A stretch of 42,016 bases of DNA from Clostridia bacterium. GTDB lineage: Bacteria; Bacillota; Clostridia; Oscillospirales; CAG-272. The position numbers and the translations under genes were made by a program. Below, piece by piece: positions 558-31,739 of the stretch; the first letter of the stretch is position 1, and each line of letters begins with the position of its first letter. Below the pieces are notes generated by a model. That model searched no databases. It was not told where the DNA came from and saw nothing but the letters and a program-made list of their open reading frames with translations. Location: the NCBI GenBank assembly GCA_017621695.1, contig JAGASP010000118.1, forward strand, positions 1-42,016, in the 5' to 3' direction.

Positions 558-891
558 CAGATATTAACTTTTACACGGCTGACACCGTTGCTCACTTCTC
601 TTGTGAGTATGGTATCGGGTATCGTGTGCTTTTATTTGCTACATCGTGGGACTTGTGTGTTTGGTTGTTGGTCTGGACTTGATGAACATAGTTTGGTATA
701 AACTATTCTATCACATGGACCCAGGCAGAACTATTGGTTGGTTTGGTCGTGTGTTTGACCTTGTGCCCGATTTTTTCAACTACATCAGCGGTGAAACAGT
801 CGGAAACTTCCTGATGTTCCTGCCCTTTGGTAGAGAAGTTTTATATATGACCATCATCGACCGCACCATAGGCGCAAAAAATCAGCGGTAA
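558..891 (+). pseudogene. VanZ-like membrane protein remnant, frameshifted
   Basis: No intact start or full-length frame is present. From about 558 to 650 one frame encodes a hydrophobic stretch ('LLTSLVSMVSGIVCFYLLH'); from about 610 a second frame continues with 'VGLVCLVVGLDLMNIVWYKL' and then 'ETVGNFLMFLPFG'. The N-x-x-x-F-x-PFG pattern is characteristic of VanZ-family proteins, which usually have about 160-200 residues and four or five membrane segments. Here the protein stops about 20 residues after that motif, so both a frameshift and a C-terminal loss are likely. The functional role of VanZ proteins (low-level glycopeptide tolerance in the best known case) should not be assumed for this remnant. 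An alternative is an unrelated small membrane ORF at 646-891 starting at GTG without a good ribosome site. Confidence 0.45.
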
Positions 892-925
892 CCGAAGCAA
901 AATCGGCTACCGCTTGTTTTGTTTT
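884..925 (+). terminator. Terminator after the VanZ-like remnant
   Basis: A 12-bp stem with one mismatch (884-895 with 903-914) is followed by a T-rich stretch (TGTTTTGTTTTC). It also marks the probable left limit of the island that follows. Confidence 0.75.
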
Positions 926-932
926 CATCCTT

Positions 933-1037
933 GGTGGAGGTCGAAGGAGGTCATATCATAAACTTTTCTATCGAGCGATTTTGACGAAAATTCTGTCCTA
1001 AAGGAGTTTTATGAAAAGACCTCCTTCGACCTCCACC
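933..1037. repeat. Perfect 20-bp inverted repeat with ribosome-site-like arms
   Basis: GGTGGAGGTCGAAGGAGGTC at 933-952 is exactly the reverse complement of 1018-1037, with 65 bases between. Each arm reads AAGGAGGT on one strand and ACCTCCTT on the other, that is, a perfect Shine-Dalgarno sequence and the matching anti-Shine-Dalgarno sequence. The loop is too long for an ordinary terminator. It lies between the terminator at 884-925 and the 3' end of the leftward zinc-finger gene. The role is unknown. Confidence 0.8.
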
Positions 1038-1046
1038 TTTGTCTGA
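1011..1046 (+). CDS. Possible 11-residue leader peptide
   Basis: ATG at 1011 is preceded by AAAGGAG at 1001-1007 and opens a tiny frame, MKRPPSTSTFV, whose codons run through the right arm of the 20-bp inverted repeat. A ribosome translating it would melt that arm, as in attenuation leaders. No rightward gene follows that it could obviously control, so it may be chance. Confidence 0.22.
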   Translation: MKRPPSTSTFV

Positions 1047-1057
1047 TGATTATATTT

Positions 1058-2182
1058 TTATTCAGTGTCTGCGCCGTCCGTCTGCATTGACGCGACCTTT
1101 TGACGCTTACGGCAATTTCGTGTGTTTTGCGCCCTGCGGCGTTTGTTGCACTCGGGGCTACCGCAATAGATCTTACGGTTCGCTTTGCCTACGCGCACAA
1201 AGGCGTTACCGCATATGGGGCAAATGAGAATGACGGGGTTATCGCAAATATCATATTCTTCTTCCTCATGCTTGAATTCGGGGAGAGGCAATTCGCTTAT
1301 TTTCTTCGCCAGCGTGTACCAGGCTATGTCAAATACCGAATGAATATCCGCAGCAAGGACAACGATATTTTTCTTGCGGTTGACCTTAAGGCGCATACGG
1401 AAGTCAGGCATCATATCCACAAGCTTATCACGGAGAATATAATAATCGTCATACGGAAGGGTGGCAAAGCCCTCTTCGATAGTATTTCGATGGACAGGGG
1501 GCGCATTACGTCTTGCCTCCTGCATTTCTTTTATAAGGTCTTCGGGCGTGACGGGCGTATCATCTATTTCATCGCTCATTTCCGGTAGCTCGCCTTTATA
1601 TTTTTCAAGGAAAGGAACGCCTTCAAAATATCTGCCCTCATCGGCAAGGTTAAAGGCGGCATCATCGTAACCCTTTAAAATCATATCAAGGGCAAAGGCG
1701 AAAGACGCCACTTGATAGAACTTCCCGAGGTCGTGCATAAAATCATTGACGTCAAAAATACCGTCTCTCTCAATAAAAAACGATTCGTGCGCCAAATCAA
1801 ACTCGTCTTCGCTCATAAGGGCGGCAAGCTCATCTACAAAATACGGATGCGCCACACGCTGACACCAATCCATAATCAATTCGTCAAACGGCTTCTTCTC
1901 GGAGAAGTCGTTTATTTTTAATGCCAGGTTATAAAGGCTTGCCAAAATATCCGCTCCCGTGAGTCCGTCGCTGTCGAAGAACTCAGGCTCGAAACCGGGG
2001 CGGCAAATAGGACGTGCCAATATTTCTCCGTCTGCATTCTGCATTTCGTATTTCTTGAACCGAAATAGCTTGTATATAAGCTGACCCACTCCGCCTACCG
2101 TACCAACTTCTCCGAAACCGAGCGTATCGGTTCTTAAGTCGGCCACTGAAGGTTTCCACATACCGGAACCATCTAAAGGCAT
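1058..2182 (-). CDS. Unknown protein with C-terminal zinc finger (DUF6076-like)
   Basis: The longest frame starts at 2221, but the ATG at 2182 is preceded by AGGAGG at 2190-2195 with good spacing, and the upstream ATG has no ribosome site; this gives 374 residues. The body is acidic and shows no enzyme motif that I can name. The C-terminus holds C-x2-C and C-x4-C pairs (C321, C324, C340, C345) followed by an Arg/Lys-rich tail, a zinc-ribbon pattern also seen in the DUF6076 group; that family name is from memory and tentative. The gene is transcribed leftward from a promoter that abuts the rightward replication operon. This position is the one taken by regulators in phage satellites and integrative elements, so a DNA-binding regulatory role is possible but not shown. 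Confidence 0.75.
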   Translation of the reverse strand: MPLDGSGMWKPSVADLRTDTLGFGEVGTVGGVGQLIYKLFRFKKYEMQNADGEILARPICRPGFEPEFFDSDGLTGADILASLYNLALKINDFSEKKPFDELIMDWCQRVAHPYFVDELAALMSEDEFDLAHESFFIERDGIFDVNDFMHDLGKFYQVASFAFALDMILKGYDDAAFNLADEGRYFEGVPFLEKYKGELPEMSDEIDDTPVTPEDLIKEMQEARRNAPPVHRNTIEEGFATLPYDDYYILRDKLVDMMPDFRMRLKVNRKKNIVVLAADIHSVFDIAWYTLAKKISELPLPEFKHEEEEYDICDNPVILICPICGNAFVRVGKANRKIYCGSPECNKRRRAQNTRNCRKRQKVASMQTDGADTE

Positions 2183-2225
2183 ATCTGTACCTCCTATGTA
2201 ATCAATGGTGTAATCAATCAAATTT

Positions 2226-2254
2226 TTACAACGATTACATTATAGCGTATAATA
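2226..2254 (+). promoter_or_regulatory. Rightward promoter for the replication operon
   Basis: TTTACA at 2226-2231 and TATAAT at 2249-2254 are 17 bp apart. Transcription would start near 2261 and run through a 200-nt leader into the excisionase-like gene at 2463. It interleaves with the leftward promoter at 2240-2268, so the two should compete. Confidence 0.75.
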
Positions 2255-2268
2255 GAGACAAATACAAG
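2240..2268 (-). promoter_or_regulatory. Leftward promoter for the zinc-finger gene
   Basis: On the minus strand TTGTAT (2263-2268) and TATAAT (2240-2245) are 17 bp apart, ahead of the ATG at 2182. The two opposing promoters share the same 43 bp, an arrangement typical of switch regions. Confidence 0.75.
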
Positions 2269-2319
2269 AGCAAATCGCAAAATTTTGTATTTTTTGTTCC
2301 TTGAAAACCGAATCCCGTC

Positions 2320-2435
2320 CGTTTTGGAGATTAGTACTTCATTGTGCCAGGATGACGAGAGTCGGAGCACAAGGGGCAGCCGGACTCTTGAGGGGTAAAG
2401 CACCTTAAGACCGAAACGAGTCGGACACAAACACA
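2320..2435 (+). other. Possibly structured 5' leader of the replication operon
   Basis: The 200-nt untranslated stretch before the excisionase-like gene has no reading frame with a ribosome site. It contains several complementary short segments (GAGTCGG with CCGGACTC, GTGC with GCAC, and a second GAGTCGGAC copy) and many GGGG or purine loops. This suggests a folded leader RNA. I do not recognise a known riboswitch or family. Confidence 0.3.
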
Positions 2436-2462
2436 AATCTATAAAAAAGGAGGAAAACAAGT

Positions 2463-2639
2463 ATGGAAAAAACAACGATGAGCGTTCAAGAATTATCGGC
2501 GCAGATGGGCATCAGCCTTCCCAAGGCATATGAGCTTGTTAAAACGCCCGGCTTTCCCACCCTTCGTATCGGAACGAGAATCCTCATTCCGGTTGACGCA
2601 TACAAGGAGTGGCTCAACAAAAATGCGTCCAAGATGTAA
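2463..2639 (+). CDS. Excisionase-like small HTH protein
   Basis: A 58-residue protein with a strong ribosome site (GGAGG at 2449-2453). The sequence 'MSVQELSAQMGISLPKAYEL' followed by 'FPTLRIGTRILIPVDAYKEWL' is the winged MerR/Xis-type helix-turn-helix found in excisionases and AlpA-like activators. These proteins bend att-site DNA and steer recombinases toward excision, or activate the integrase or replication operon of a satellite. It is the first gene of the rightward operon and precedes the primase by 40 bp, which supports a role in excision or replication control of the island. Confidence 0.85.
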   Translation: MEKTTMSVQELSAQMGISLPKAYELVKTPGFPTLRIGTRILIPVDAYKEWLNKNASKM

Positions 2640-2679
2640 GCACCGCAAAAATCTCATGGGAAGGAGGTGAAAAAGAAAA

Positions 2680-4989
2680 ATGAACGAACCCATGCAAGAT
2701 TTTATAGCGGAGCTGAAATCAATGCCCATATGGTTTCATTGGCATTGGGAGCAAGACAGAAGCGGAAGAAAAACCAAAGTCCCACACGCTGCCAAAGGCG
2801 GAGCAACCGGAACCTCGGATGACTGGTCTCACACGTGGGTTGCATATGAGGAGGCACTCTCCTTAAAGGAAGAACAACACGCCTCGGGGCTCGGTTTCAA
2901 GGTGCCTGACGGGTACTTCTTTCTCGATGCTGACCATTATGAGCTTGAAGATCCGTTTATGAAATTGCTTCTTGAACGCTTCGACTCTTACACCGAGCGG
3001 TCGGTCAGCGGTGGCGGTATTCATATCTACGGAAAGTGCGACAGAGCGAAACTCCCCTTTGTTACTGATAAGAAAGGTAAAGAAAAGCTCGACGGCGCAT
3101 TTTACGTAAAGAATCCGGGCAATCGTCTGGAGCTTTACATTGGCGGTCTTACAAATCGCTTTGCCGTATTCACCGGGGATGTGGTGTGGGAGCAACCTCT
3201 CAAGGAATGCACCAATGCCGTGCTTACGACGCTTGACAAAAATATGCGCCGATCCGAAAAGAAGAAATACAGCGAAAGCCGTGACGGAGACAAGGTTACC
3301 TTTGACCTTATCTGCAATCTGCGAAAGCAGAAGAACGGCGATAAATTCCGTATGCTTTTCGAAGAAGGTGATATTAGCGACTATGGTTCTCATTCCGAAG
3401 CCGATGCCGCCCTTTGTGCATTGATTGCTTTTCGCACCGGGGATGACCCGGAGATGATTGATACAATCTTCAGGCAATCTGCTCTCTACCGTGAAAAGTG
3501 GGAGAGGGACGATTACCGCGAAGCCACTATTGCTCTCTGTATTAGCGTGTGTAAAGGAGTATACCACCGCTCCAAAATGCCTCATCCGTATTTTGTCAAG
3601 TTCAATGAGGAGACGGGTGTGCCGTATATCTGTGTGCCTTTGCTTGCCAAATATGTCCGTGAGCATCTTTGTTATATGCTCGTCCGTGACAACGGCAAGC
3701 AGGGTGCTCTGAAATATGTGTATGAGGCAGACGGCGTATACAAGCTCTACTCCACAGAAATGTTTCTCGGCGCAATAAAAGCGTTTATCGCAGAATACGA
3801 TGAAGAGCTTGTCAAAATGAGCAAGGTCAACGAGGCGTACCAAGATATTTGTTCTGACTTATGCTTTGTTTCGCAGGATGAGCTGAACGCCGATGAAGGT
3901 CTTATCAACTTTAAAAACGGCTTGCTGCACATCACCGCAACCGAAACAACGCTGACACCGCACACACCCGAGGTTATTTCTACCATACAGATCCCCTGCG
4001 AGTGGAAAGGCTATGCTTCACCCACTCCCGTATTTGACCGCTATATGCACACCCTCACAAACGGAGATAAAGCCACCGAAGAACTCCTCTTACAGTTCAT
4101 AGGCGCCTGTATTTCCAATATAAAAGGATGGCGAATGAAAAAATCGCTCTTCCTCGTAGGTGACGGCAACACCGGTAAATCCCAGCTTAAAAGCCTTGTG
4201 GAGCGGTTGCTCGGCAAGGGCAACTTTATCGGCATCGACCTTAAAGAGATTGAGGCTCGGTTCGGTACGGGTGCTGTATACGGAACTCGTCTCGCAGGTA
4301 GCTCAGATATGAGCTTTGTATCGGTAGACGAGCTTAAGACCTTCAAGAAGATGACGGGTGGAGACAGCTTATACGCTGAGTTCAAGGGGCAGCAAGCCTT
4401 TGAGTTCACCTACAACGGACTCTTGTGGTTCTGTATGAACCGCTTACCGAAGTTCGGTGGCGACGATGGGCAATGGGTGTATGACCGCATTATGGTTGTC
4501 AACTGCCCCAACGTGATTTCGAAGGACAAGCAAGACAAAAAGCTCCTCGATAAGATGTATGCCGAGCGTGAAGGTATCGTATTCAAAGCAATTCAAGCTC
4601 TCCAAAGGGTTATCGCAAACGGCTATCGTTTTACCGAACCGCATTCCGTAGACCTTGCACGGGAGCGTTATATGACAGAAAACAATACCGTCATCTCTTT
4701 CTTTGAGGAGTGTATGTGCGAACGCCCCGGCAACAAGATCGTCGACTCTGCCACCACGGGGCGCATCTACAATGTCTACCGCGCTTGGTGCGTTGACAAC
4801 AACAACGGCTATGCCAAAACGGCAAAAGAGTTCCGCGAGACATTGTCGGCACACCTGGGTAAGTCCTTTAAGGACATCAGCGTACACACCAATCGCGGCA
4901 CCTATTACCGCAATCACACACTGACCATTGAAGCCAAGGAACAGTACAGCAGGGTTTACGGCTACGACAGCACGGAGTTTTTATCATAA
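2680..4989 (+). CDS. Primase-helicase (AEP primase + D5/P4-type SF3 helicase)
   Basis: A 769-residue replication initiator-like protein with start ATG after AAGGAGG. The N-terminus carries archaeo-eukaryotic primase motifs: a D-x-D pair ('FFLDADHY', residues 81-87) and 'SGGGIHIYGK' (110-119). A helix-rich linker at about 238-285 ('SEADAALCALIAF', 'FRQSALYREKWER') matches the segment that joins primase and helicase in phage primases. Residues about 405-420 ('GLINFKNGLLHI') match the D5-N region. A Walker A motif GDGNTGKS lies at 494-501, and the downstream 'WFCMNRLPKF' fits the SF3 sensor region. Family members unwind and prime DNA at plasmid, phage or satellite origins. The 3' flank carries 12 iteron-like repeats, a fitting binding region. 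The length is normal for the family and no catalytic motif seems lost. Confidence 0.93.
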   Translation: MNEPMQDFIAELKSMPIWFHWHWEQDRSGRKTKVPHAAKGGATGTSDDWSHTWVAYEEALSLKEEQHASGLGFKVPDGYFFLDADHYELEDPFMKLLLERFDSYTERSVSGGGIHIYGKCDRAKLPFVTDKKGKEKLDGAFYVKNPGNRLELYIGGLTNRFAVFTGDVVWEQPLKECTNAVLTTLDKNMRRSEKKKYSESRDGDKVTFDLICNLRKQKNGDKFRMLFEEGDISDYGSHSEADAALCALIAFRTGDDPEMIDTIFRQSALYREKWERDDYREATIALCISVCKGVYHRSKMPHPYFVKFNEETGVPYICVPLLAKYVREHLCYMLVRDNGKQGALKYVYEADGVYKLYSTEMFLGAIKAFIAEYDEELVKMSKVNEAYQDICSDLCFVSQDELNADEGLINFKNGLLHITATETTLTPHTPEVISTIQIPCEWKGYASPTPVFDRYMHTLTNGDKATEELLLQFIGACISNIKGWRMKKSLFLVGDGNTGKSQLKSLVERLLGKGNFIGIDLKEIEARFGTGAVYGTRLAGSSDMSFVSVDELKTFKKMTGGDSLYAEFKGQQAFEFTYNGLLWFCMNRLPKFGGDDGQWVYDRIMVVNCPNVISKDKQDKKLLDKMYAEREGIVFKAIQALQRVIANGYRFTEPHSVDLARERYMTENNTVISFFEECMCERPGNKIVDSATTGRIYNVYRAWCVDNNNGYAKTAKEFRETLSAHLGKSFKDISVHTNRGTYYRNHTLTIEAKEQYSRVYGYDSTEFLS

Positions 4990-4992
4990 TCC

Positions 4993-5293
4993 GTGACAGT
5001 AGTGACAGTACGGTGACAGTTCAAAAACACAACTGTCACCGCCGTAAACCCTTATACCATAAGGCTTTTTGAGGGGGGAGTGACAGTAGTGACAGTTCTT
5101 ATAACTTCTATGGGAATTTCGGAAAACTTTATATGCAAGTGGAAAGTAGATATAAAGATTAAAGAAAAATCCAAGAAGGAAATGAAAAAACTGTCACAAC
5201 TGTCACTAAAACACCGAAACCCCTTGATATATAAGGCTTTTTCGTAGTGACAGTTACCTGTGTTTACTGTCACCGAACTGTCACTACTGTCAC
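4993..5293. repeat. Iteron-like array, candidate replication origin
   Basis: The octamer GTGACAGT occurs 12 times in 301 bp. Six copies are on the plus strand (4993, 5002, 5013, 5080, 5089, 5247) and six on the minus strand (5032, 5190, 5199, 5266, 5277, 5286). The first 28 bp (4993-5020) and the last 28 bp (5266-5293) are inverted copies with one difference, and a second pair of related segments (AAACCC..TT..TA..AAGGCTTTTT) repeats at about 5046 and 5217. The middle is A/T-rich. An iteron cluster directly after a primase-helicase gene is the classical place for a replication origin. Origin function is inferred. Confidence 0.75.
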
Positions 5294-5320
5294 CAACTAT
5301 CACAGAAAGGAGAAAAAACG

Positions 5321-5656
5321 ATGAGCACGTGTAATACCAAGCAGAATGCCCTTTGCAAGAGCCTCGGCCCCGACTACAGAATCCGTACGATTGACCTTGA
5401 GCGTTGCATTTACCGCGACTTCGGCAACGGATTCGACGTTGAGGTCAGCGGAACACACACCACGAGTGAGCGCAAGACCGCCACGATTTATCTGTGGTAC
5501 AACGCTCGTACCATTGCCAAGATTGTGTCCGACGTCAAACGTGATGATATCGGCAAGGTTGTAGATGAGCTTTACAAACTCACCTGCGAACTTTTGGCAG
5601 ACGGAGAGCTGTGCGAAGAAAAAATCAGAGAGCTTCGCCGTACTCGGTCACTGTAA
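5321..5656 (+). CDS. Unknown 111-residue protein
   Basis: Starts at ATG after AAAGGAG, 28 bp beyond the iteron array. The protein is soluble and of mixed charge. It shows a likely beta-rich core ('FDVEVSG...KTATIYLWYN') and a C-terminal helical, acidic-basic region ('VVDELYKLTCELLADGELCEEKIREL'). No signal peptide, membrane segment or known motif is seen. Its place between the origin candidate and the capsid gene suggests an island function, for example in replication control or packaging, but nothing in the sequence proves this. Confidence 0.75.
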   Translation: MSTCNTKQNALCKSLGPDYRIRTIDLERCIYRDFGNGFDVEVSGTHTTSERKTATIYLWYNARTIAKIVSDVKRDDIGKVVDELYKLTCELLADGELCEEKIRELRRTRSL

Positions 5657-5805
5657 ATAATTTTTAGGGGGTAGGGGGGGCAAAATCTCCAGGACTCTTT
5701 TTCCGTACAGCGGTCGAGGGCTCTCACGCAAAAAAACCGGAATTCAAAGGGGGAATATGGCCCCCCTTTCAAAAAAGCCATACAATATCATACAAAAAGG
5801 AGTAA
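5657..5805. other. G-rich phage-like intergenic segment (cos-site candidate)
   Basis: After the unknown gene a noncoding stretch has two G-runs (GGGGG and GGGGGGG at about 5667-5680), then AAAATCTCC, and ends in a hairpin AAAGGGGG...CCCCCCTTT (about 5746-5770). Firmicute siphophages often carry G-rich runs followed by AAATCTC in the packaging region next to the terminase genes; that comparison is from memory. Here there is no terminase, but a capsid gene follows. The segment could be a cos-like packaging site or simply a strong transcription pause. Confidence 0.4.
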
Positions 5806-5812
5806 TTTTACA

Positions 5813-6820
5813 ATGAATAACACCAAAACCTACAGCGAACATCTCGCAAAACTCAACGCTTTAAGAGAAGAAATTCTCGGTATTAAGCGCGATCCTACCG
5901 CAGAAGAGCGCAAAATTGAAGCGGAATATGCGGTAGCTTTCAAGGATATGCTGCACACCGGTATGCCTCAGAACGCCCTTAAGATGGGTAGTGACGGCTC
6001 GGGCGGCTTCCTTGTTCCCGATACCTTTGAAAAGAAGCTCGTCGAGGGCTTGACAAAGGATAACCTTCTCCGCAGACTCGGCACGGTGCTGAAGACCACC
6101 AAAACAATGAAGATTCCGAGAGTGGTGGAAGAAGGCTCTGCTGCTTGGATTCCCGAGGGAGAAATCGTACGTGTCAGCGAGACCACCTTCGGTGAAATCG
6201 TACTTGACGCATACAAGCTTGCCAAGCGCGTCCTCGTTTCGGACGAGCTCTTGGAGGACGCCGACTTTGATGTGGAGGACTTCATTTATCAGATGTTCGT
6301 CCACGCCATTGCCAAGGCAGAGGAAGCCGCGTTCTTCACCGGTGACGGAAACGGCAAGCCCGTGGGCATCGTCTATCAGGCAGAAGTGGGCAAAGTTATC
6401 GACAACGCAACCGACCTTTCCTTTGATGACCTCATCGACCTTATCTTCTCGGTCAAGGAGCCTTACCGCAAGAATGCCGTTTTCATCCTTTCGGAGGATA
6501 CCGAAGTCAAGCTCAAGAAGCTCGGTCTTTATGACGGCAAACCTGCTTGGCGCAAAGCTTTGAACGAAGAGGAACCGGATATGCTCCTCGGCTATCCCGT
6601 ATACGTTACCAACGAGATGCCCGATGTGGATGCAGGAAACAAGCCTGTACTTTTCGGTGACTTCTCCTACTTCTGGATTGGAGAGCGTGGCAAGCGCAGC
6701 GTGAAGCGTCTTGTGGAGCGTTATGCCGACCACGGTCAGGTAGCCTACATCACATCCGAACGTATTGATGCAAAGCTCGTTCTTCCCGAAGCCGTCAAGT
6801 CCCTTGAGGTAAAGTCGTAA
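5813..6820 (+). CDS. HK97-fold phage major capsid protein
   Basis: A 335-residue protein with start ATG after AAGGAG. Residues 1-45 are a charged helical segment like the delta/scaffold region of HK97-type capsid proteins. From about residue 60 the sequence shows family hallmarks: 'GGFLVPDTFEKKLVEGL', 'TMKIPRVVEEGSAAWIPEGE' (the E-loop and N-arm region), 'LAKRVLVSDELLEDA', 'EEAAFFTGDGNGKPVGI' and 'GYPVYVTNEMP'. Family members form the shell of tailed-phage heads. It is complete, slightly short (full proteins with a longer delta domain are about 390), and stands without portal, protease or terminase genes. In a mobile island with its own primase this suggests a satellite that makes or modifies capsids, or a relic of a prophage. 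Confidence 0.93.
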   Translation: MNNTKTYSEHLAKLNALREEILGIKRDPTAEERKIEAEYAVAFKDMLHTGMPQNALKMGSDGSGGFLVPDTFEKKLVEGLTKDNLLRRLGTVLKTTKTMKIPRVVEEGSAAWIPEGEIVRVSETTFGEIVLDAYKLAKRVLVSDELLEDADFDVEDFIYQMFVHAIAKAEEAAFFTGDGNGKPVGIVYQAEVGKVIDNATDLSFDDLIDLIFSVKEPYRKNAVFILSEDTEVKLKKLGLYDGKPAWRKALNEEEPDMLLGYPVYVTNEMPDVDAGNKPVLFGDFSYFWIGERGKRSVKRLVERYADHGQVAYITSERIDAKLVLPEAVKSLEVKS

Positions 6821-6830
6821 ACACCATTAC

Positions 6831-6986
6831 GGGAGAGTAGCCCCCGTGGTTGCTCTCCCACCACATAGAAAGGAGATAGCGCGAAAGTTTAGTAATCCTT
6901 ATTTTCAAACTAAACTGTTTCGCGCCCAAATTCGCCCTAAAAATGGGTCCTACCCCATTTTTGTCGCAAGCGACACGGACGAATTT
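6831..6986 (+). ncRNA. Multi-hairpin RNA candidate between capsid and HTH genes
   Basis: Four helices can be drawn. A GGGAGAG/CTCTCCC hairpin covers 6831-6859. A long stem pairs 6879-6893 with 6909-6925 (15 bp with a 2-nt bulge). Then an outer stem AAATTCG/CGAATTT (6928-6934 with 6980-6986) encloses AAAAATGGG/CCCATTTTT (6939-6947 with 6954-6962) and TGTCGC-AA-GCGACA (6962-6975), making a three-way junction. Two ribosome-site-like AAAGGAG motifs flank it. The region is noncoding. It could be a regulatory leader for the downstream gene, or a processing or packaging signal. I know no matching RNA family. Confidence 0.5.
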
Positions 6987-7010
6987 CAAAATAGAAAGGA
7001 GATCTAAAAC

Positions 7011-7391
7011 ATGAAACCGCAAGATAAAATTGCAATCGATAACCTTCGTATGGAAGGCAAGTCCGCCGGGGACATCGCCCTCATCCTTCATCTCTCTCCC
7101 AACACCGTGCGCTCTCATATCCGCCGTCATCCCGACCTCCCCGGCACTCGTCGTTGTATGACTTGCGGTGCATTCGTGGCACAACCCACGGGGAGACGTG
7201 AAAAGAAGTTCTGCTCGGATAAGTGCCGTATGGCTTGGTGGAACTCACACCAGGATGCCGTTAACAGAAAAGCATATTACAACCTCGTTTGCGAGGAGTG
7301 CGGAAAGGAGTTTGTGAGCTATGGAAACAATCGTCGCAAATACTGCTGTCGCGCGTGTTACCTTATCGCCCGTCGCGCGAAATCCGTATGA
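7011..7391 (+). CDS. HTH protein with two zinc-finger pairs
   Basis: A 126-residue basic protein with ATG after AAAGGAG. Residues 8-40 form a sigma/LuxR-like helix-turn-helix ('IDNLRMEGKSAGDIALIL', 'SPNTVRSHIRR'). Two Cys4 zinc fingers follow: C49/C52 with C68/C72, and C94/C97 with C112/C116, separated by a Trp-rich helix. The pattern fits a DNA-binding regulatory or architectural protein. It precedes the SHOCT and recombinase genes, and the SHOCT gene begins inside its 3' end, so the two are coupled. A role in regulating recombinase expression is inference. Confidence 0.82.
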   Translation: MKPQDKIAIDNLRMEGKSAGDIALILHLSPNTVRSHIRRHPDLPGTRRCMTCGAFVAQPTGRREKKFCSDKCRMAWWNSHQDAVNRKAYYNLVCEECGKEFVSYGNNRRKYCCRACYLIARRAKSV

Positions 7392-7548
7392 CCCGACACA
7401 GATTATCCTTTATCACACCTCCGTAAGCCTTATCGAAAGGCTTGTAAAAAGAGGCGTTCTGACCGTCTCCGATTACAAGAAAGCCATTGACGTATTGAAC
7501 AAAAAGTACGGCATATCTTCGGATAGTATTTTCGCAGAAATCGCTTGA
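7321..7548 (+). CDS. SHOCT-domain small protein
   Basis: A 75-residue protein whose only in-frame ATG lies inside the previous gene, giving a 71-bp overlap; AAAGGAG at about 7303-7309 supports this start. The N-terminal 25 residues share bases with the zinc-finger gene in another frame. The C-terminal part ('LIERLVKRGVLTVSDYKKAIDVLNKKYG') is a SHOCT domain, a short helical pair with unknown or oligomerisation function, often found next to recombinase genes in Clostridia. It ends 60 bp before the first recombinase. Confidence 0.72.
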   Translation: METIVANTAVARVTLSPVARNPYDPTQIILYHTSVSLIERLVKRGVLTVSDYKKAIDVLNKKYGISSDSIFAEIA

Positions 7549-7608
7549 CTTTCGGGGCGTTTAGAGTGATATATATAGTACCTTATAAATGATACAAAGG
7601 AGGATTCT

Positions 7609-8871
7609 ATGACAAGAAAAATTGAGCAAGTGCGTTTTGCCGAAAGCGCACCCAAGAAAAAGCGAGTGGCAGCCTACGCCAGAGTCTCAAGCGGAAAAGA
7701 TGCGATGCTCCACTCGCTCTCGGCACAGGTCAGCTACTACAGCGACTACATCCAAAGCAACGGCTGGGAGTATGCAGGCGTTTATGCCGACGAGGCAATC
7801 ACCGGAACGAAGGACAAGCGTGACGGCTTTCAGAAGCTCCTCACCGAATGCCGTAAAGGCAACGTGGATATGGTCATCACCAAGTCCATCAGCCGTTTTG
7901 CAAGAAACACGGTCACGCTTCTCACCACGGTTCGTGAGCTCAAGGAGCTGGGCGTTGACGTATACTTCGAGGAACAGAACATCCATACAACGAGTGCCGA
8001 CGGAGAGCTGATGCTTACCATCCTCGCATCCTACGCCCAGGAGGAGAGCCTTTCGGTCAGCGAAAACACGAAGTGGCGTATCCGCAGAAACTTTGAAGAC
8101 GGCAAGCCTTGGAGCGGATTCGTCCTTGGTTATCGCTGTGAAAACGGACAGTATGTGATCGTCCCCGAGGAAGCCGAGGTGGTTCGGCGCATCTACCGCG
8201 AGTACCTTGAGGGCTTGGGAGCGACCGCCATTATGAAAGGACTTAACGATGACGGCATTCGCACAAGAACCGGAAAGCCGTGGCGCATCGGCGGCGTCCT
8301 CAAGATTCTGAAGAACTACAATTATACAGGCAATCTCCTGTTGCAAAAGACCTACAGCGAAAATCACCTCACCAAGCGTAAGCTGGTAAACAACGGAGAG
8401 CAACCGCAGTACCACGTTGCAGGGGCGCACGATGCCATCATCGACCTTGCCACCTGGGAGGCGGTACAGGACGAGATAGCAAGACGAGCCGAACAATATG
8501 CGCCTACAAAGAAGGCTTCTTCGTATCCGTTTACGGGACTGATCGTATGCGGTACCTGCGGAAAGCACTATAGGCGCAAAACCACGGCAAGCGGTATTAT
8601 TTGGGTCTGCACTACCTACAACACCTACGGCAAGAAAGGCTGTGCCTCCAAGGCGATACCGGAAAGTATTCTTTATGACCTGACCGCAGATATCCCTCTC
8701 GGTGATTTAACGGCTATCAGAGCCGAGAACGGTAACACCTTGGTGTTCTGCTGGGGGGACGGCACACAAGCCGTTAAACGATGGAAAGACCGCTCCCGTG
8801 CCGAGAGCTGGACGGAAGAAATGAAAGAAGCCGCCCGACAGAAGACCCTGGCACGGACGGCAAATAAGTAA
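7609..8871 (+). CDS. Serine recombinase, shorter of a tandem pair
   Basis: A 420-residue large serine recombinase with ATG after AAAGGAGG. The resolvase domain begins at about 19 ('RVAAYARVSS'), with the nucleophile most likely S27. 'TKSISRFARN' at 91-100 is the conserved second arginine motif. The recombinase domain spans about 165-290, and a zinc ribbon has C314, C317, C334 and C345. The long C-terminal coiled coil of the partner is missing; instead about 70 residues end the protein. Such enzymes cut att sites through a phosphoserine link to integrate or excise DNA. It is followed 11 bp later by a longer recombinase, so both are probably needed. Confidence 0.95.
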   Translation: MTRKIEQVRFAESAPKKKRVAAYARVSSGKDAMLHSLSAQVSYYSDYIQSNGWEYAGVYADEAITGTKDKRDGFQKLLTECRKGNVDMVITKSISRFARNTVTLLTTVRELKELGVDVYFEEQNIHTTSADGELMLTILASYAQEESLSVSENTKWRIRRNFEDGKPWSGFVLGYRCENGQYVIVPEEAEVVRRIYREYLEGLGATAIMKGLNDDGIRTRTGKPWRIGGVLKILKNYNYTGNLLLQKTYSENHLTKRKLVNNGEQPQYHVAGAHDAIIDLATWEAVQDEIARRAEQYAPTKKASSYPFTGLIVCGTCGKHYRRKTTASGIIWVCTTYNTYGKKGCASKAIPESILYDLTADIPLGDLTAIRAENGNTLVFCWGDGTQAVKRWKDRSRAESWTEEMKEAARQKTLARTANK

Positions 8872-8882
8872 AGGAGGATACT

Positions 8883-10469
8883 ATGGTAGCCAAGAACGTA
8901 ACCGTTATTCCTGCGACCATAAGTCAACGCACACGAAAATCTACCGAGGCACGGACACGCCGAAGGGTTGCAGGATATGCCCGTGTGTCCACCGACAGCG
9001 ATGAACAGTTCACCTCTTATGAGGCACAGGTCGATTACTACACACAGTATATCAAGAACAACCCCGAATGGGAGTTCGTCAAAGTCTACACCGATGAAGG
9101 CATCTCCGGCACGAACACCAAGAAGCGTGAGGGCTTCAATCAAATGGTCGCAGATGCCGTTTCGGGCAAGATAGACCTTATCATTACCAAATCGGTCAGC
9201 CGTTTTGCAAGAAACACCGTGGACAGCTTGACCACCATACGAAAGCTTAAGGAAAAAGGCGTTGAGGTCTTCTTTGAAAAGGAGAACATATGGACGTTCG
9301 ATTCCAAGGGCGAGCTTCTTCTCACGATCATGTCAAGCCTTGCCCAGGAAGAGAGCCGTTCCATCTCCGAGAACATCACTTGGGGCAAGCGCAAGCAGTT
9401 TGCGGACGGCAAGGTCAGCCTTCCGTACAAGCAATTCCTCGGCTACCGAAAGGGCGCAAACGGTCTGCCCGAGATCGTCCCCGAGGAAGCGGAAATCGTA
9501 AGGCTCATATACCGAATGTTTATGGAAGGCAAGTCGCAGAGCTATATCGCCAAGTACCTGATGGACAATGACATTCCGTCACCAAGCGGTAAGAAGACCT
9601 GGCAGGTCAGCACCGTGGAAAGCATTCTTACAAACGAAAAGTACAAGGGCGATGCCAGGCTTCAGAAGACATTCACCACCGACTACCTCACAAAGAAGAT
9701 GAAAGTCAACGAGGGCGAGGTTCCACAGTACTATGTGGAGAACAGCCACCCCGCCATCATCGATGCAAAAGCGTGGGATATGGTACAGGGAGAGCTTCGC
9801 AGACGGAAGGAATCCTCACGGCGCACTACCTCACAAAGTCCCTTTTCCGGTAGGGTATTCTGCGGTGATTGCGGAGAGCAGTTCGGTCCCAAGGTATGGC
9901 ACTCCAACAGCCAATACCGCCGTGTGATATGGCAATGCAACCATAAGTTCAAGGGCGAGGAGAAATGCACTACGCCACACCTGACCGAGGATGCTCTCAA
10001 GGAGTATACGAGGCAAGCATTGAGCTTTCTCATCGAGAACCGCGAAGCCTTGATTGAGGACGGCAGACTTATAAAGCAAGCCCTCTCCGATCACACCGAA
10101 ATCGATGCCGAGCTTCGTGCGGTTGCCGAGGAGATGGAGGTAGTGGCAGGACTGATTGAGAAAAGCATCGCCACCAATGCGATAACGGCTCTTGACCAGG
10201 ACGAATACGCCAAAACCTATGAGAGCCTTACCGAACGCTACACAACCTTGCAGAAGCGTTATACGACTCTCACACGGCAGAGGGAGGATAAGCAATTCAA
10301 GGCGGATGAGCTTAGCGGATTCCTCTTTGAGCTTGGCGAGCTTGACCTTCTCGATACCGAATGGAAGGACAGCCGATTTCGCGCCACCGTTGAGCGCATC
10401 ACCGTCCACAATGACGGACGGCTTGTGTTCACCTTCACGAACGGCAGCGAGGTGACGGTGATGATGTAA
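8883..10469 (+). CDS. Large serine recombinase, longer of a tandem pair
   Basis: A 528-residue large serine recombinase with start ATG after AAAGGAGG. The catalytic domain opens with 'GYARVSTDSDEQ' (nucleophile S36), followed by 'TKSVSRFARN' at 102-111. The recombinase DNA-binding domain lies at about 175-305. A zinc ribbon has C327, C330, C352 and C362. A coiled coil at about 395-490 is the part that controls synapsis direction in this family. It is full-length and similar to the first recombinase in the N-terminal half, so the pair looks like an old duplication that split roles. It ends the island operon and is followed by a terminator. Confidence 0.95.
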   Translation: MVAKNVTVIPATISQRTRKSTEARTRRRVAGYARVSTDSDEQFTSYEAQVDYYTQYIKNNPEWEFVKVYTDEGISGTNTKKREGFNQMVADAVSGKIDLIITKSVSRFARNTVDSLTTIRKLKEKGVEVFFEKENIWTFDSKGELLLTIMSSLAQEESRSISENITWGKRKQFADGKVSLPYKQFLGYRKGANGLPEIVPEEAEIVRLIYRMFMEGKSQSYIAKYLMDNDIPSPSGKKTWQVSTVESILTNEKYKGDARLQKTFTTDYLTKKMKVNEGEVPQYYVENSHPAIIDAKAWDMVQGELRRRKESSRRTTSQSPFSGRVFCGDCGEQFGPKVWHSNSQYRRVIWQCNHKFKGEEKCTTPHLTEDALKEYTRQALSFLIENREALIEDGRLIKQALSDHTEIDAELRAVAEEMEVVAGLIEKSIATNAITALDQDEYAKTYESLTERYTTLQKRYTTLTRQREDKQFKADELSGFLFELGELDLLDTEWKDSRFRATVERITVHNDGRLVFTFTNGSEVTVMM

Positions 10470-10485
10470 TGAAGTTTGCAAATGA

Positions 10486-10520
10486 AGAGTCGGCTACTAC
10501 GGTGGTCGGCTCTTTTTTTT
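10486..10520 (+). terminator. Terminator after the recombinases
   Basis: A stem of AGAGTCGGC with GTCGGCTCT, using G-U pairs, is followed by eight T. It closes the rightward island operon. The island end and attachment core should lie at or near here but cannot be fixed without an empty-site comparison. Confidence 0.85.
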
Positions 10521-10532
10521 GCTTTCAGAAGA

Positions 10533-10561
10533 TTGAAAAATTCATAAAAAAGTGGTATAAT
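10533..10561 (+). promoter_or_regulatory. Promoter of the NERD gene
   Basis: TTGAAA at 10533-10538 and TATAAT at 10556-10561 have a 17-bp spacer. The start point would be near 10568, giving a short leader of about 24 nt. Confidence 0.88.
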
Positions 10562-10591
10562 AAACGTATTAAATACCGAAGGAGGTATCCC

Positions 10592-11455
10592 GTGGGAATT
10601 CGAGCGTTTTTTCATAAAATCAAAATGGGCTTTGTACGAGCCGGGGAGTCCTCCATTCCGTATGTCAATGAGGCGAAGCGTTACGGTAATTACGGTGAGG
10701 ATGAATTTACATATAGACTCCGCAGAGAGCTTCCTTCGTGTAAAATTAAAAGAAATGTAGTCATTTCAACACCAGATGGCAATGCAGAAATTGACTGCCT
10801 GGTTCTCCATAATAATAAGCTTTTTGCTATAGAGGTCAAGCGTTGGAAGGGATGTCTGACCGAACGAGATGATGGCTTTTTGCAAGAAAAAACGGACAGG
10901 TGGACGGGAGAGATGCATACAAAGCTGCTGAAATCACCATTCAAACAACTTGGAAGAGCCATATACCTTTTGCGAAAGCAAATCCCCCTTAAAGCGTGGG
11001 TGAATGCCATTGTGTTCTTTGAGGATGATGAGCTTGAGTCGGTTTCCGCTTTTTCGGATAACGTATGGTTTGATCGCTATCAAGACCTTGTGGATTATAT
11101 CAGCAATGACGGCAAGGCTTCTTTCGGCACAAGTGCAAATGACTTTTTTGAAAAATGTGTTCCCGCCGACTACCTATATGCCAACGCTTGGGGAAAGTCC
11201 TTGCATTGTATTATCAACCGAGCCACATTGCGATTTGAAACTCCCCAAGGTAATATTTCTGCGGACAATATCGTTTTCATCCGCATCTCCCACCATTGGT
11301 CATATGACGAGTTACATATCACTATGACGGGCGGCTCGGTAAGAACTATAACTTTGGAAAATGCAAAAATTCAAGTCAGCGATAACGGTCGTATCAGCAC
11401 CTACGCTTTATGCAAATTGGATTATATTGAGTTGGGCAGAACGCTAAATCAGTAA
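10592..11455 (+). CDS. NERD-domain (nuclease-related) protein
   Basis: The frame is open from 10469, but the promoter at 10533-10561 and GGAGG at 10581-10585 place the start at GTG 10592, giving 287 residues. Residues 33-86 hold the NERD signature: 'NYGEDEF' (E36), 'GNAEIDCLV' (D68) and 'FAIEVKRWKG' (E81, K83). This matches the catalytic pattern of the PD-(D/E)xK nuclease superfamily. The second half, from about 200, is an extra beta-rich domain with no name that I know. NERD proteins are thought to process DNA or RNA and are common as accessory genes, often in defence regions. It is single, with its own promoter and terminator, next to the island edge. Whether it is island cargo or chromosomal is open. 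Confidence 0.85.
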   Translation: MGIRAFFHKIKMGFVRAGESSIPYVNEAKRYGNYGEDEFTYRLRRELPSCKIKRNVVISTPDGNAEIDCLVLHNNKLFAIEVKRWKGCLTERDDGFLQEKTDRWTGEMHTKLLKSPFKQLGRAIYLLRKQIPLKAWVNAIVFFEDDELESVSAFSDNVWFDRYQDLVDYISNDGKASFGTSANDFFEKCVPADYLYANAWGKSLHCIINRATLRFETPQGNISADNIVFIRISHHWSYDELHITMTGGSVRTITLENAKIQVSDNGRISTYALCKLDYIELGRTLNQ

Positions 11456-11488
11456 TTTAACGAATACCAATCTTTTAACGATAGGAAG

Positions 11489-11519
11489 GCACTACACCTT
11501 GACGGGGAGTAGTGCTTTT
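11489..11519 (+). terminator. Terminator after the NERD gene
   Basis: GCACTAC pairs with GTAGTGC across a 13-nt loop, followed by TTTTCT. Confidence 0.75.
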
Positions 11520-11584
11520 CTGCATTTTGAGTCATCCGAGGCACAACATATAGGCACCGCAAATACCGAAATGCATCACCAAAG

Positions 11585-11674
11585 AGAAAAAGCCCTTGAT
11601 TTACAAGGACTTTCGACTAATATTTAACGATAAAAAGAAAACAGTAGGTCGATACGATTGTATCAATCTACTGT
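11585..11674 (-). terminator. Two tandem terminators behind tRNA-Leu
   Basis: Reading leftward from the tRNA, a 15-bp stem (11660-11674 with 11641-11655, two mismatches or wobbles) is followed by TTTTCTTTTT. A second hairpin (GTCCTTG with CAAGGGC) at about 11590-11608 is followed by TTTTTCTCTTT. Both end leftward transcription. Confidence 0.8.
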
Positions 11675-11682
11675 TCCTTATT

Positions 11683-11769
11683 TGGTGCGGGCAAGAGGAC
11701 TTGAACCTCCACCGAGTTGCCCCGACTAGAACCTGAATCTAGCGCGTCTGCCAATTCCGCCATGCCCGC
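11683..11769 (-). tRNA. tRNA-Leu (anticodon CAG)
   Basis: The minus strand shows an 87-nt tRNA with encoded CCA end. The acceptor stem is GCGGGCA paired with TGCCCGC. The D-arm region reads GGCGGAATTGGCAGACGCG, the anticodon stem-loop is CTAGA-TTCAGGT-TCTAG, the variable arm is long as in class II tRNAs, and the T-arm contains GGTTCAAGTCC. Anticodon CAG reads the leucine codon CUG. A consensus promoter precedes it and terminators follow, so it is a single-gene unit. Confidence 0.97.
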
Positions 11770-14554: not shown

Positions 14555-14604
14555 GTCGTTATCCTGTATCTGGATAATTCATCACTTCGAGAAAGGTGTT
14601 TGTT

Positions 14605-15156
14605 ATGGACAACAACAATCAGCAGTTCAACAACCAGCAGAACAATGGCCAGCAGAACAACGCTCAGCCGCAGTTCAACAACCAGCAGCAATACAATGCT
14701 CAGCCTCAGTACAATGCTCAGCCTCAGTACAATGGCCAGCCCCAGTTCAACGGTCAGCCCCAGTTCAACGGTCAGCCTCAGTTCAACGGTCAGCCCCAAT
14801 TCAATGGCCAGCCCTATTACGGCCAGATGCCTCAGGGTCCCAAGATGCCTGACGGAAAGGCATTCTCTGTAGCAGCTCTCGTTCTGGGCATTTGCAGCGC
14901 TGCATTCTCCATGATCCTTGCATGGTCCTTCCCTGTCAGCCTTCTGTTCCTGGCTTGCGGCATCGCCGGTATCATTCTCGGCGTTATGGGTCGCAAGAAG
15001 TCTACCGCTTGCTACGGTAAGCCCTCCGGTGTTGCAACTGCCGGTTTCGTTTTGAGCATCATCGGCACCTCTATTTCCGCACTCTTTATCCTTTCCTGCC
15101 TCGCTTGCGCAGCTTGCATCGGTGCAGAATTGGGTGCAATCAGTTCTTTCTTCTAA
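14605..15156 (+). CDS. Q/N-rich repeat membrane protein (DUF4190-like)
   Basis: ATG at 14605 has AGAAAGG at 8 bp and is preferred over the GTG at 14596; 183 residues. Residues 1-75 are almost entirely Q, N, P, F, Y and G, built as tandem 'QPQFNG' or 'QPQYNA' hexapeptides (about nine copies). Residues about 84-183 hold several membrane segments, including 'VAALVLGICSAAFSMILAW' and 'SIIGTSISALFILSCLACA', with 'GVMGRKKS' between. This layout (low-complexity Gln/Pro-rich cytoplasmic tail, then DUF4190-type hydrophobic segments) is common in Clostridia, where its role is unknown. No signal peptide is evident. A strong promoter suggests high expression. The Lgt-like gene follows after 10 bp. Confidence 0.85.
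   Translation: MDNNNQQFNNQQNNGQQNNAQPQFNNQQQYNAQPQYNAQPQYNGQPQFNGQPQFNGQPQFNGQPQFNGQPYYGQMPQGPKMPDGKAFSVAALVLGICSAAFSMILAWSFPVSLLFLACGIAGIILGVMGRKKSTACYGKPSGVATAGFVLSIIGTSISALFILSCLACAACIGAELGAISSFF
14665..14823 (+). repeat. In-frame tandem 18-bp repeats (QPQFNG units)
   Basis: About nine units of 18 bp encode six-residue repeats. Four neighbouring units are nearly identical (QPQFNG), which suggests recent expansion by slippage and possible length variation between strains. Confidence 0.85.
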
Positions 15157-30526: not shown

Positions 30527-30595
30527 ACTTTTTACCTCCTTTGGTAGTGCGTGGATTCTTTCACCGCAGTATCCTCTATGTGCGGTTTAAATCTG

Positions 30596-30679
30596 TCATC
30601 TCGTCCTTGTCGAGGATGCACGTATGTCCCGCAGGAGGGAGACTGCAAGCGCATCACACCGAACTCGTTTTCTTATCAT
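30596..30679 (-). CDS. Possible 27-residue leader peptide before the giant gene
   Basis: In the roughly 200-nt leader of the giant gene, ATG at 30679 has GGAGGTG about 8 bp upstream and encodes a very basic peptide (MIRKRVRCDALAVSLL...TRTR). It has no recognised family. It may be a leader that tunes translation of the giant protein, or chance. Confidence 0.25.
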   Translation of the reverse strand: MIRKRVRCDALAVSLLRDIRASSTRTR

Positions 30680-30730
30680 GTTCAAGCACCTCCGGCACAA
30701 ATTACAACGTATATATATTTATACAATCTA

Positions 30731-30739
30731 ATTATATCA
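30731..30739 (-). promoter_or_regulatory. Extended -10 promoter candidate of the giant gene
   Basis: TGATATAAT on the minus strand, in an A/T-rich stretch, gives a leader of about 200 nt. There is no good -35 match, which is common with an extended -10 element. Confidence 0.45.
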
Positions 30740-30757
30740 TATATATATCGAGCTGTG

Positions 30758-30835
30758 GGGGTGTATTTAGGGTGTATTAGGGGTGTATTTAGGGTGTATT
30801 TAGGGCGTACCGGGGGATTTTGGGGGTGTGACAAA
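30758..30835 (+). repeat. G-run tandem repeat GGGTGTATTTA
   Basis: Four units of GGGTGTATTTA (one unit shorter, one with an extra G) are followed by GGGCGTACC, GGGGG and GGGGG. At least seven runs of three or more G occur in 78 bp on the plus strand, so a G-quadruplex is possible. It lies just upstream of the promoter candidate of the giant gene. The rest of 30840-31038 shows only a GGAACCTGC/GCAGGTTCC hairpin at 30980-31003, a possible terminator for the leftward gene ending at 31039. Confidence 0.7.
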
Positions 30836-31038
30836 AAAGATGACAGCAAAAGCCACCACCGAGTCCAAATGCGTTTTACAGAAGCACGAACCGTTCACAG
30901 CGATCCATCATCCCCAAAATCAGATTTTGCTTTTTCCACAATACGTACTCTCATCCGAACCCATCAACAAAGCTTGAAGGGAACCTGCTCTATCGCAGGT
31001 TCCATTCGATATTCTTATGTATTGGTCGTCACAAAAAA

Positions 31039-31656
31039 TCATGCATCATTCCAAGCTTCACGCTCAAATTTTTGCAAGCTGACAAGAACAATATCCGAGC
31101 CACAGATGCAGTCGCCGTCCGATACCTCCTCTCGCCTTGCAGCATCTGAAATGCTGTCGGGCAAGCGATTCATCACCACGTACCGATGCACCTTCCGTTC
31201 CTCGACGAATTGTCGCCAGGAGATCTCCCGTCGACCGACCATTCTCGTATCGGCCGCGCCTCTGGCTACCGTTCCCCGTTTACTGCTTCTGGCCACCGAA
31301 AACGTCGTCTTCCAGTACTCGATACGGTTCACGCTGCAAAAATGATACCGATAATATTTCTTTTTCCGAAGCAGGAAACACACGTCCACCGTCTCGTTCG
31401 GTGTTTCCGCGACAACGTAGCCCCATCCGAGAAAAATTCGGGTTCGCTTCACTTGCATTCCCTTTTTTCGCAATATGGACTTGATGCGATGCACAAAAGC
31501 CAGCAGAATGATCAGATGACAGATCAAATAAAGCGCAAGGCAGAACAAGAGCGCTAAAAGCAGAGGCAAATTCCGTATCTCCGTGCTTCCCGACGTGGGC
31601 AAAAACAGCACAAGGCTCAAAATAACCGACGCGGCATAAAGAAACCATCTGAGCAT
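31039..31656 (-). CDS. Unknown membrane protein with two N-terminal TM segments
   Basis: 205 residues; ATG at 31656 has AAAGGATG upstream. Two hydrophobic helices ('MLRWFLYAASVILSLVLFL' and 'LLLALLFCLALYLICHLIIL') are followed by a basic cytoplasmic region of about 145 residues with 'IFLGWGYVVAETPNETVDV' and 'YYRYHFCSVNRIEYW', which looks beta-rich (PH-like). No family name can be given. It stands alone, downstream of the MITE-like element and upstream of the giant gene, on the same strand. Confidence 0.7.
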   Translation of the reverse strand: MLRWFLYAASVILSLVLFLPTSGSTEIRNLPLLLALLFCLALYLICHLIILLAFVHRIKSILRKKGMQVKRTRIFLGWGYVVAETPNETVDVCFLLRKKKYYRYHFCSVNRIEYWKTTFSVARSSKRGTVARGAADTRMVGRREISWRQFVEERKVHRYVVMNRLPDSISDAARREEVSDGDCICGSDIVLVSLQKFEREAWNDA

Positions 31657-31739
31657 ACGTACATCCTTTCCGCGCTTACGGCGCTAATGATTCGCATCAA
31701 ACGTAATGAAGATCACACGGAGCAAACGATATATGATTG

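Follow-up and report, generated by a model that had tools for sequence, protein, structure and literature searches.

We find that a 42,016-nt contig of a Clostridia bacterium (JAGASP010000118.1 of assembly GCA_017621695.1, 2.62 Mb and 90.6% complete), the whole of which is the window analysed here, carries a mobile element that is likely to be a helper-dependent phage satellite, working in the manner of the cos-type Staphylococcus aureus pathogenicity islands (cos-SaPIs). Two features lead to this proposal. The first is a gene for an HK97-type major capsid protein (MCP; 335 aa, positions 5813-6820, + strand, Pfam Phage_capsid E 5.8e-68) with a shortened delta domain, and the second, recognised by comparison with other loci, is a cos-like packaging site of ~95 bp (5668-5764, + strand) lying between the MCP gene and the gene for a 111-aa protein. 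Because these are the same two devices that cos-SaPIs use, we propose that the element would be packaged at this site by an HK97-type phage and that its MCP would co-assemble with that of the phage. Profiles for the large terminase (TerL), portal, protease and tape measure matched nothing near the capsid gene, as an earlier note on this DNA, made from its letters alone, had concluded for terminase, portal, protease and tail genes.

In SaPIbov5, a phage cos site carried by the island serves its packaging by the helper (PMC5052747). The island's capsid homologue, Ccm, has a delta domain shorter than the helper's and redirects helper heads from the prolate form to small T=4 shells (PMC5052747, PMC8569155), in which it occupies the pentamers; alone it forms no capsids (PMC8569155). 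The delta domain itself is the N-terminal internal scaffold of HK97-type phages and is removed by the protease (PMC5052747, PMC6893505). With SaPIbov4 and SaPIbov5, which carry a phage cos site, the window element shares a site that is cos-like and a single HK97-fold capsid homologue with a short delta domain (PMC5052747, PMC8569155). It differs from them in its two serine recombinases, in a cos-like site of the HK97 kind and in its hosts, and its MCP is only a distant relation: the phi12 capsid protein was matched at E 1e-5, and no 355-residue Ccm chain was among the matches listed.

Relatives were gathered by searches with the capsid protein, two capsid alignments and the primase, in genomes and viral contigs; two of these searches contributed their best 80 matches each, and locus counts refer to the matches listed. 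We scanned 251 loci (given L numbers) with iterated profiles for the small terminase (TerS), TerL, portal, protease, tape measure and the window's own genes, the head-gene profiles having been seeded from Streptococcus phage Javan575. Phrog_2, tried as a terminase test, missed the TerL of phage records in which the iterated profile finds it, and was replaced. Among 224 MCP open reading frames (ORFs), a figure that includes second or split ORFs of four loci, 147 had one or more of TerL, portal and protease no further than 5 kb away, 28 had none of them although 2.5 kb or more of sequence was available on either side, and the other 49 lay on short contigs. Once MCPs shorter than 250 aa or cut by contig ends, as well as duplicate and short loci, had been dropped, clustering at 90% identity left 117 representatives: 76 with head genes, 35 with the MCP only and six unassigned. 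The MCP-only label was given where head genes are absent or, on short contigs, where a recombinase or primase lies nearby, and the score of 0/35 for TerL, portal or protease within 5 kb is partly this rule and not independent evidence. The start of the MCP, a trait independent of the labelling, and the cos-like site do count as evidence.

Five of the 35 MCP-only representatives are in named hosts, all of them Clostridia (L009, L010, L016, L017, L018), five are the window and genomes of the window's order, and 25 are viral contigs; relatives also occur in other gut and rumen bacteria. L017 belongs to the cultured species Massiliimalia massiliensis. At least 4 kb of upstream sequence is available for 20 of them. 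Within 5 kb of the MCP lie a serine recombinase in 28, a primase in 20, a helix-turn-helix (HTH) plus zinc-binding protein (HTHZn) in 13, a SHOCT-like protein in 10 and TerS in five. The best whole relative, L105, runs from a divergent zinc-finger-like gene through Xis, a DUF3987 replication protein and a member of the 111-aa family to a cos-like site, MCP, HTHZn, SHOCT, two recombinases and a NERD gene, with a DNA methylase on its left. Across the bacterial family as a whole, an MCP of phage or satellite kind in this group is uncommon (13 of 295 genomes). As far as these comparisons reach, the lone-MCP locus is a recurring kind and no one-off, and the earlier note's picture of an element supplying the shell protein alone now extends to 35 representative loci.

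To compare the capsid proteins, MCP starts were measured as residues ahead of a conserved GG.LVP anchor. All 34 MCP-only proteins measured start 31-67 residues before the anchor, whereas for 73 of the 76 head-module representatives the distance is 109-148 residues (median over all 76, 122); the window MCP starts at 63, compared with about 122 in phages. In 31 of the 35 MCP-only loci the open frame is too short to hold 109 residues. It would permit at least 109 in the other four, the window included, where the frame has no start codon beyond 63. The head-module exceptions are L216 (41, a fallback call in a frame that permits 129), L224 (42, in a frame that permits only 58) and L052 (82, or 124 under a looser rule). 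By this measure the scaffolding delta domain is shortened or missing in MCP-only loci.

The cos-like site was modelled by a profile made from 13 seeds (12 from loci in which no head module is known, the window included, and one from a phage) and rebuilt once from its own matches; the window copy is a seed of both models, and its E-values of 9e-21 and 2.6e-20 hold by construction. This profile gave 101 matches, spread over 88 of the 396 loci searched; a single block-shuffled copy of these 4.08 Mb gave none. Where head-module loci have a match, it lies no more than 130 bp ahead of the TerS frame in 21 of 26. In three phages outside the seed set the site is found between an HNH gene and TerS (Terrisporobacter phage TPDSL_ph1, E 5e-18; Erysipelothrix phage phi1605, E 4e-17, where it overlaps the last 15 bp of HNH; Gardnerella phage vB_Gva_AB1, E 1e-14). 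The record of HK97, likewise not a seed, is bounded by cos at either end, and its TerS gene starts at base 50; in its joined ends the profile match stops 6 bp short of the cos junction. In the MCP-only loci, here 36 with L071 added, the site lies on the strand of the MCP and no more than 1.5 kb upstream of it in 24, and somewhere in the locus in 32; with the nine seeds or their stand-ins removed, these counts become 15 and 23 of 27. Genomes of the family yielded a match at E 1e-4 in 8 of 146 cases, and there was no second match in the window (E below 1) or in its own genome (E up to 0.01). A direct blastn search with the cos region had returned self copies and two weak matches only; pattern and profile searches then found more. 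We take the site at 5668-5764, on the strength of these comparisons, to be a cos-like candidate for the packaging site. The earlier note, which described the element as having no packaging genes, had overlooked it, and some relatives carry a small terminase.

On this basis, the satellite life cycle might run as follows. The element would reside in the chromosome until infection by, or induction of, an HK97-type cos phage, upon which it would be excised by its serine recombinases together with the Xis-like protein and would replicate from its iteron array by its own primase-helicase. The helper's terminase would recognise the cos-like site, and the satellite MCP, without about half of the scaffolding delta region, would join the helper MCP in procapsid assembly. 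Mixed assembly may favour small shells, into which the satellite fits and from which the helper genome is excluded, and these would be matured with the helper's portal, protease and tail before the recombinases insert the element in the next cell. Induction, excision, packaging, co-assembly and small capsid size are steps that we infer. Packaging at cos is the better-supported half of the scheme, and resizing of the capsid is suggested by the short delta domain together with the staphylococcal precedent. The earlier note had proposed that the element might resize or replace its helper's capsid; the shortened delta domain fits that idea.

Several observations weigh against this satellite proposal, which is founded on sequence comparison. 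When a helper was sought in the element's own, 90.6% complete assembly, one MCP and one cos match were found, both belonging to this element, and no portal match; of the 12 genomes of the genus, one besides this yielded a portal match, a distant one, and one besides this a cos match. The cos-like site lies elsewhere or on the other strand in eight of the 36 MCP-only loci, was not found in three (L039, L061, L111), and one locus offers too little sequence to tell. Of the 18 phage representatives in which TerS was matched, just 6 carry the site in the 600 bp upstream, and we therefore regard it as marking one cos type, not all. The match in HK97 is weak (E 0.003), and the best match in phi12, the helper of SaPIbov5, is non-significant (E 0.49) and lies at the start of the small-terminase gene. 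The delta lengths rest on predicted start codons, and an empty-site search gave no useful match for the left flank and found no element ends or attachment (att) sites. Finally, the HTHZn-recombinase module is common to non-capsid loci and hence unspecific for capsid satellites: HTHZn adjoins recombinases in the window and in prophage-like loci alike, 146 HTHZn-like ORFs (duplicates included) comprise 20 with an adjacent MCP, 106 without and 20 with too little sequence, and two of nine genomic places of the module have an MCP. The fuller HTHZn-SHOCT-recombinase module likewise occurs in loci without this MCP, some of them with a tape measure upstream.

Trees were built from the mature portion of the MCP, most delta columns being excluded. 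In a quick tree of 117 rows the MCP-only label changes twice, compared with 30 times in shuffles, and a careful tree of 63 of the 117 representatives, chosen by us, recovers a clade A that includes the window (100/99) and a clade B (100/100). The MCP-only state, a short delta domain and, in most cases, a cos-like site co-occur across these two clades. This bears on whether the element is a prophage relic that has lost all its head genes but one. Related head modules do occur in phages, the HTHZn-SHOCT-recombinase module is common to prophages, the capsid slot is variable, and decayed copies exist: L106 (9917-11011) and L107 (5444-6538) carry identical MCP stretches with an in-frame stop, and as the second recombinase of L106 is split too, they represent a decayed relative, while a further fragment lies on contig C98 of the window's genome. 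Decay would have to be reconciled, however, with an MCP-only state common to two strongly supported clades, with short MCP starts throughout, a recurrent gene set, recurrence across genera and a cos-like site kept near the MCP in two thirds of the relatives (24/36). The element's genes in the window are all open and uninterrupted, in keeping with the earlier note, to which they looked intact. Its MCP is, on rough estimates, under purifying selection, with dN 0.12, dS 0.93 and dN/dS about 0.13 against L036, and dN 0.24, dS 1.26 and dN/dS about 0.19 against L038, ratios that are rough at dS values near or above 1, close to saturation. Weighing both sides of the earlier note's own proviso about a decayed prophage, we find a relic distinctly unlikely.

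The MCPs of clade B are almost without a delta region, starting 31-44 residues before the anchor. Encapsulins likewise lack a delta region, and the MCP might accordingly build a small encapsulin-like container of its own, independent of a helper head. This would leave the cos-like site and the TerS of relatives without a place; no conserved cargo partner was noticed beside the MCP, though no search aimed at one was made, and Ccm alone forms no capsids (PMC8569155). We regard such a container as very improbable.

As for the origin of the proposed satellites, clade A groups with L011, L014, L110, L114 and L116 at 92/96 (not starred). Of the five, four have TerS, TerL, portal, MCP and small genes, then serine recombinases within 1.5-2.9 kb, and no tape measure; in L014 a restriction-type gene takes the place of the serine recombinases. 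Among head-module loci with at least 7 kb downstream, a tape measure is present in 43 of 48. The tape-measure family PF10145 was absent from all 11 L011-like records (six of 26-38 kb and five fragments of 8-16 kb) and present in four of five controls; the tail-less reading rests on an in-house tape-measure profile together with PF10145, which missed the tape measure of control L050 that the profile finds. L011, L110, L114, L116 and L117, in which a head module is combined with serine recombinases and, in some, lysis-like genes, and in which no tape measure was found by these means, are probably capsid-forming satellites. Since clade A groups with elements of this appearance, it may descend from them. 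The tree was at first read as showing two separate origins of satellite MCPs, but a single clade was not rejected by the approximately unbiased (AU) test (p 0.562), the tree constrained to one clade being even 2.48 log units better, and two origins are therefore not claimed.

A broader, joint reading is possible, and we offer it only tentatively. It would see a satellite family of clostridial and related hosts around one MCP, the scaffold domain of which was cut once or twice, by about half in clade A and nearly entirely in clade B, leaving a ‘pre-matured’ shell protein that would need no protease and would bring helper heads down to the size of the satellite. Clade A would come from tail-less capsid-forming satellites whose packaging genes were lost except for the MCP and sometimes TerS, with cos kept, and the slot would be a cassette for MCP, TerS, TerS plus MCP, or MCP plus a half-length paralogue. 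All four states are observed in the slot between the replication and recombinase modules: MCP alone in the window, L036 and L038; TerS plus MCP in L009, L010, L041, L042, L282 and L285; TerS immediately ahead of HTHZn, without an intervening MCP, in L284, L286 and L287; and MCP plus a half-length second capsid protein in L111 and L112. The latter, a capsid-family protein of 206 aa, comes right after the short-delta MCP (L111 7105-7725, Phage_capsid E 2.5e-12; L112 6070-6690, E 8.5e-11). TerS is Terminase_4 in L009, L010, L042, L062 and L178, and the remaining TerS calls rest on an in-house profile. Ten small ORFs 5' of MCPs or TerS were checked as potential separate scaffolds; they gave two PHROG matches of unknown function, and no scaffold was recognised by eye.

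The replication modules are swapped among relatives as well, being a D5-like primase, DUF3987 (L105), DUF927 with a Cch-type HTH (L009, L111), or absent between Xis and MCP (L036, L038). Type I restriction genes, DNA methylases and a PAPS-reductase-like protein are among the neighbours that resemble cargo; a glycosyl hydrolase lies beside L018, and two matchless proteins are also among the relatives' neighbours. Restriction-modification or similar cargo in some relatives would suit an MCP that acts as an anti-phage decoy, in which case the element would not travel in particles and its capsid protein would poison helper assembly and protect the cell. There is a precedent for such an effect, in that Ccm expression alone lowered phage titre 1000- to 10000-fold (PMC5052747). 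The cos-like site and the TerS of relatives nevertheless fit packaging, the recombinases, Xis and iterons fit a travelling element, and a decoy therefore seems to us unlikely.

The remaining genes of the element bear out the inventory given in the earlier note, from the Xis-like gene to the two serine recombinases. The divergent zinc-finger-like gene (1058-2221, - strand), DUF6076-like according to that note, has cysteine motifs judged by eye and gave no match in Pfam and PHROG scans; homologues 32-40% identical are likewise divergent beside Xis in L018, L019, L020 and L060, as is one found by profile in L105. The Xis-like HTH protein (58 aa, 2463-2639, +; Pfam HTH_17 E 2e-6) has relatives at 79-91% identity in L018, L019, L020, L035-L039 and L060. 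The primase-helicase (769 aa, 2680-4989, +) combines an NrS-1-like domain, D5_N, DUF5906 and Pox_D5 in Pfam and matches PHROG 1829, DNA primase, at E 1e-123. It contains the Walker A sequence GDGNTGKS, and the recombinases contain YARVS, which we take to be helicase and recombinase motifs, respectively. The iteron array (4993-5293) holds 12 copies of GTGACAGT, six per strand. The motif occurs nowhere else in the window, and over 500 shuffles its count averaged 0.026 and never exceeded 1; it recurs in 10 copies in L071 and in 10 directly 3' of the L063 primase; the array is likely the replication origin. The small 111-aa protein (5321-5656, +) has no family match in Pfam or PHROG, and its homologues precede MCP or TerS in L042, L061, L105, L106, L107, L111, L112 and L282.

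Downstream of the MCP lie HTHZn (7011-7391, +; PHROG 2308 E 4e-37), the SHOCT-like small protein (7321-7548, +; SHOCT_2 E 1e-4, under the curated cut-off), large serine recombinases 1 (7609-8871, +) and 2 (8883-10469, +), each with Resolvase, Recombinase and Zn_ribbon domains, and a NERD-domain gene (10469-11455, +; Pfam NERD E 3e-15) that is probably right-end cargo. Between MCP and HTHZn, 6905-6993 is a dispersed repeat with 78-84% copies on contigs C1, C3, C15, C49 and C56 of the same genome. Clostridial conjugative elements, too, can carry serine recombinases together with small HTH proteins, and the pairing could be taken to mean that this is a mobilisable element spread by conjugation, with its phage genes merely carried. 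Pfam and PHROG scans of ten window genes, however, revealed no relaxase or transfer gene, the cos-like site points to packaging instead, and we give this idea scarcely any credence. The SaPI backbone comprises a tyrosine integrase, stl and other genes; the same scans of ten genes found no tyrosine integrase, stl and the rest not having been searched by name.

The extent of the element differs from the 930-10520 of the earlier note. A NERD gene follows the recombinases in L105 (to the contig end) and in L040 (truncated by the contig end), and a different gene occupies this position in L054, so that the NERD gene is probably part of the element. In four genomes of the genus, the sequence from 11445-11452 rightward adjoins other genes. 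The right end thus probably lies, by comparison among these loci, at about 11455, with the NERD gene included. Position 930 is not marked as an end by any feature, and as the window is the entire contig, the left end may lie outside it. A 39-bp stretch at 831-869, possibly a binding site, has near-copies 5' of Xis in L035, L036 and L038, which suggests that the element extends to the left of 930. Genes for a LuxR-type HTH protein (15-290, +; Pfam GerE E 7e-14) and a Cro/C1-type HTH protein (287-499, +; HTH_26 E 4e-6) possibly belong to its left arm, or else to a neighbour.

Two repeats were noted near these borders. An inverted repeat at 930-1040, at the 3' end of the zinc-finger-like gene, has arms of ~20 bp by eye (75% over 105 bp by blastn) and is also covered by the copy on contig C98. 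That copy (30199-33054, L070), in which recombinase fragments are followed by a 79-83% copy of window 884-1255 including the end of the zinc-finger-like gene, is probably a decayed second element of the same genome. On the right, a ~250-bp repeat at 11456-11700 recurs in other genomes of the genus with varying gene neighbours and is therefore no proof of an att site. Elsewhere in the window, the single ORF at 16565-30526 (- strand, 4653 codons), with BspA-type leucine-rich repeats (LRR_5, 489 bits), probably encodes a giant surface protein; an 18/54-bp tandem repeat (14653-14814) lies within a Q/N/P-rich ORF (14596-15156), and 30759-30809 is a tandem repeat of 4.6 copies of an 11-bp unit.

Beyond the cos-SaPIs, the element can be compared with the wider phage-inducible chromosomal islands (PICIs). 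The PICI integrase is of the tyrosine kind and the repressor of stl/rpr type, whereas the window element has two large serine recombinases and a divergent gene without family match. It resembles PICIs in that TerL, portal, protease and tail genes of its own are absent by iterated profiles, suggesting reliance on a helper, and in the order of xis, primase/rep and origin, the last placed from the iterons, with one direction of transcription (PMC6092414). The Gram-negative PICIs PmCI172 and EcCICFT073 share with it a capsid homologue on a phage-inducible island and differ in hosts and genes, EcCICFT073 having a head decoration protein and full-sized capsids (PMC6092414, PMC6893505). Capsid-forming PICIs (cf-PICIs) also have their own capsid protein, and L011, L110, L114 and L116 resemble such tail-less elements apart from having serine recombinases; cf-PICIs encode all capsid and packaging proteins (PMC12409344), whereas the window element has the MCP only. 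The phage-inducible chromosomal minimalist islands (PICMIs) of Vibrionaceae are likewise small satellites with few genes, but are reported not to encode capsid remodelling genes (PMC10803314). HK97-type phages and prophages of Bacillota share the MCP family, in many cases the cos-like site and TerS family, and, in prophage-like loci, the HTHZn-recombinase module; they differ in having head genes beside the MCP, in most cases a tape measure, and a full delta domain. Satellites with a single capsid homologue are already in print, as Ccm of SaPIbov5 and in PmCI172 and EcCICFT073 (PMC5052747, PMC6092414, PMC6893505), and the earlier note's ‘distinct type’ was too strong. Among the matches listed from the openly licensed literature, we noticed no paper on clostridial or serine-recombinase satellites of this kind.

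The pairing of a cos-like site with a short MCP suggests a way in which the element may travel inside its helper's particles. If this is true, capsid piracy in the style of Ccm would recur in gut and rumen Clostridia and would be no staphylococcal oddity. The cos profile would offer a concrete means of finding the helper phages, and the natural MCP delta deletions of two sizes would be ready tests of the role of the delta domain in capsid size.

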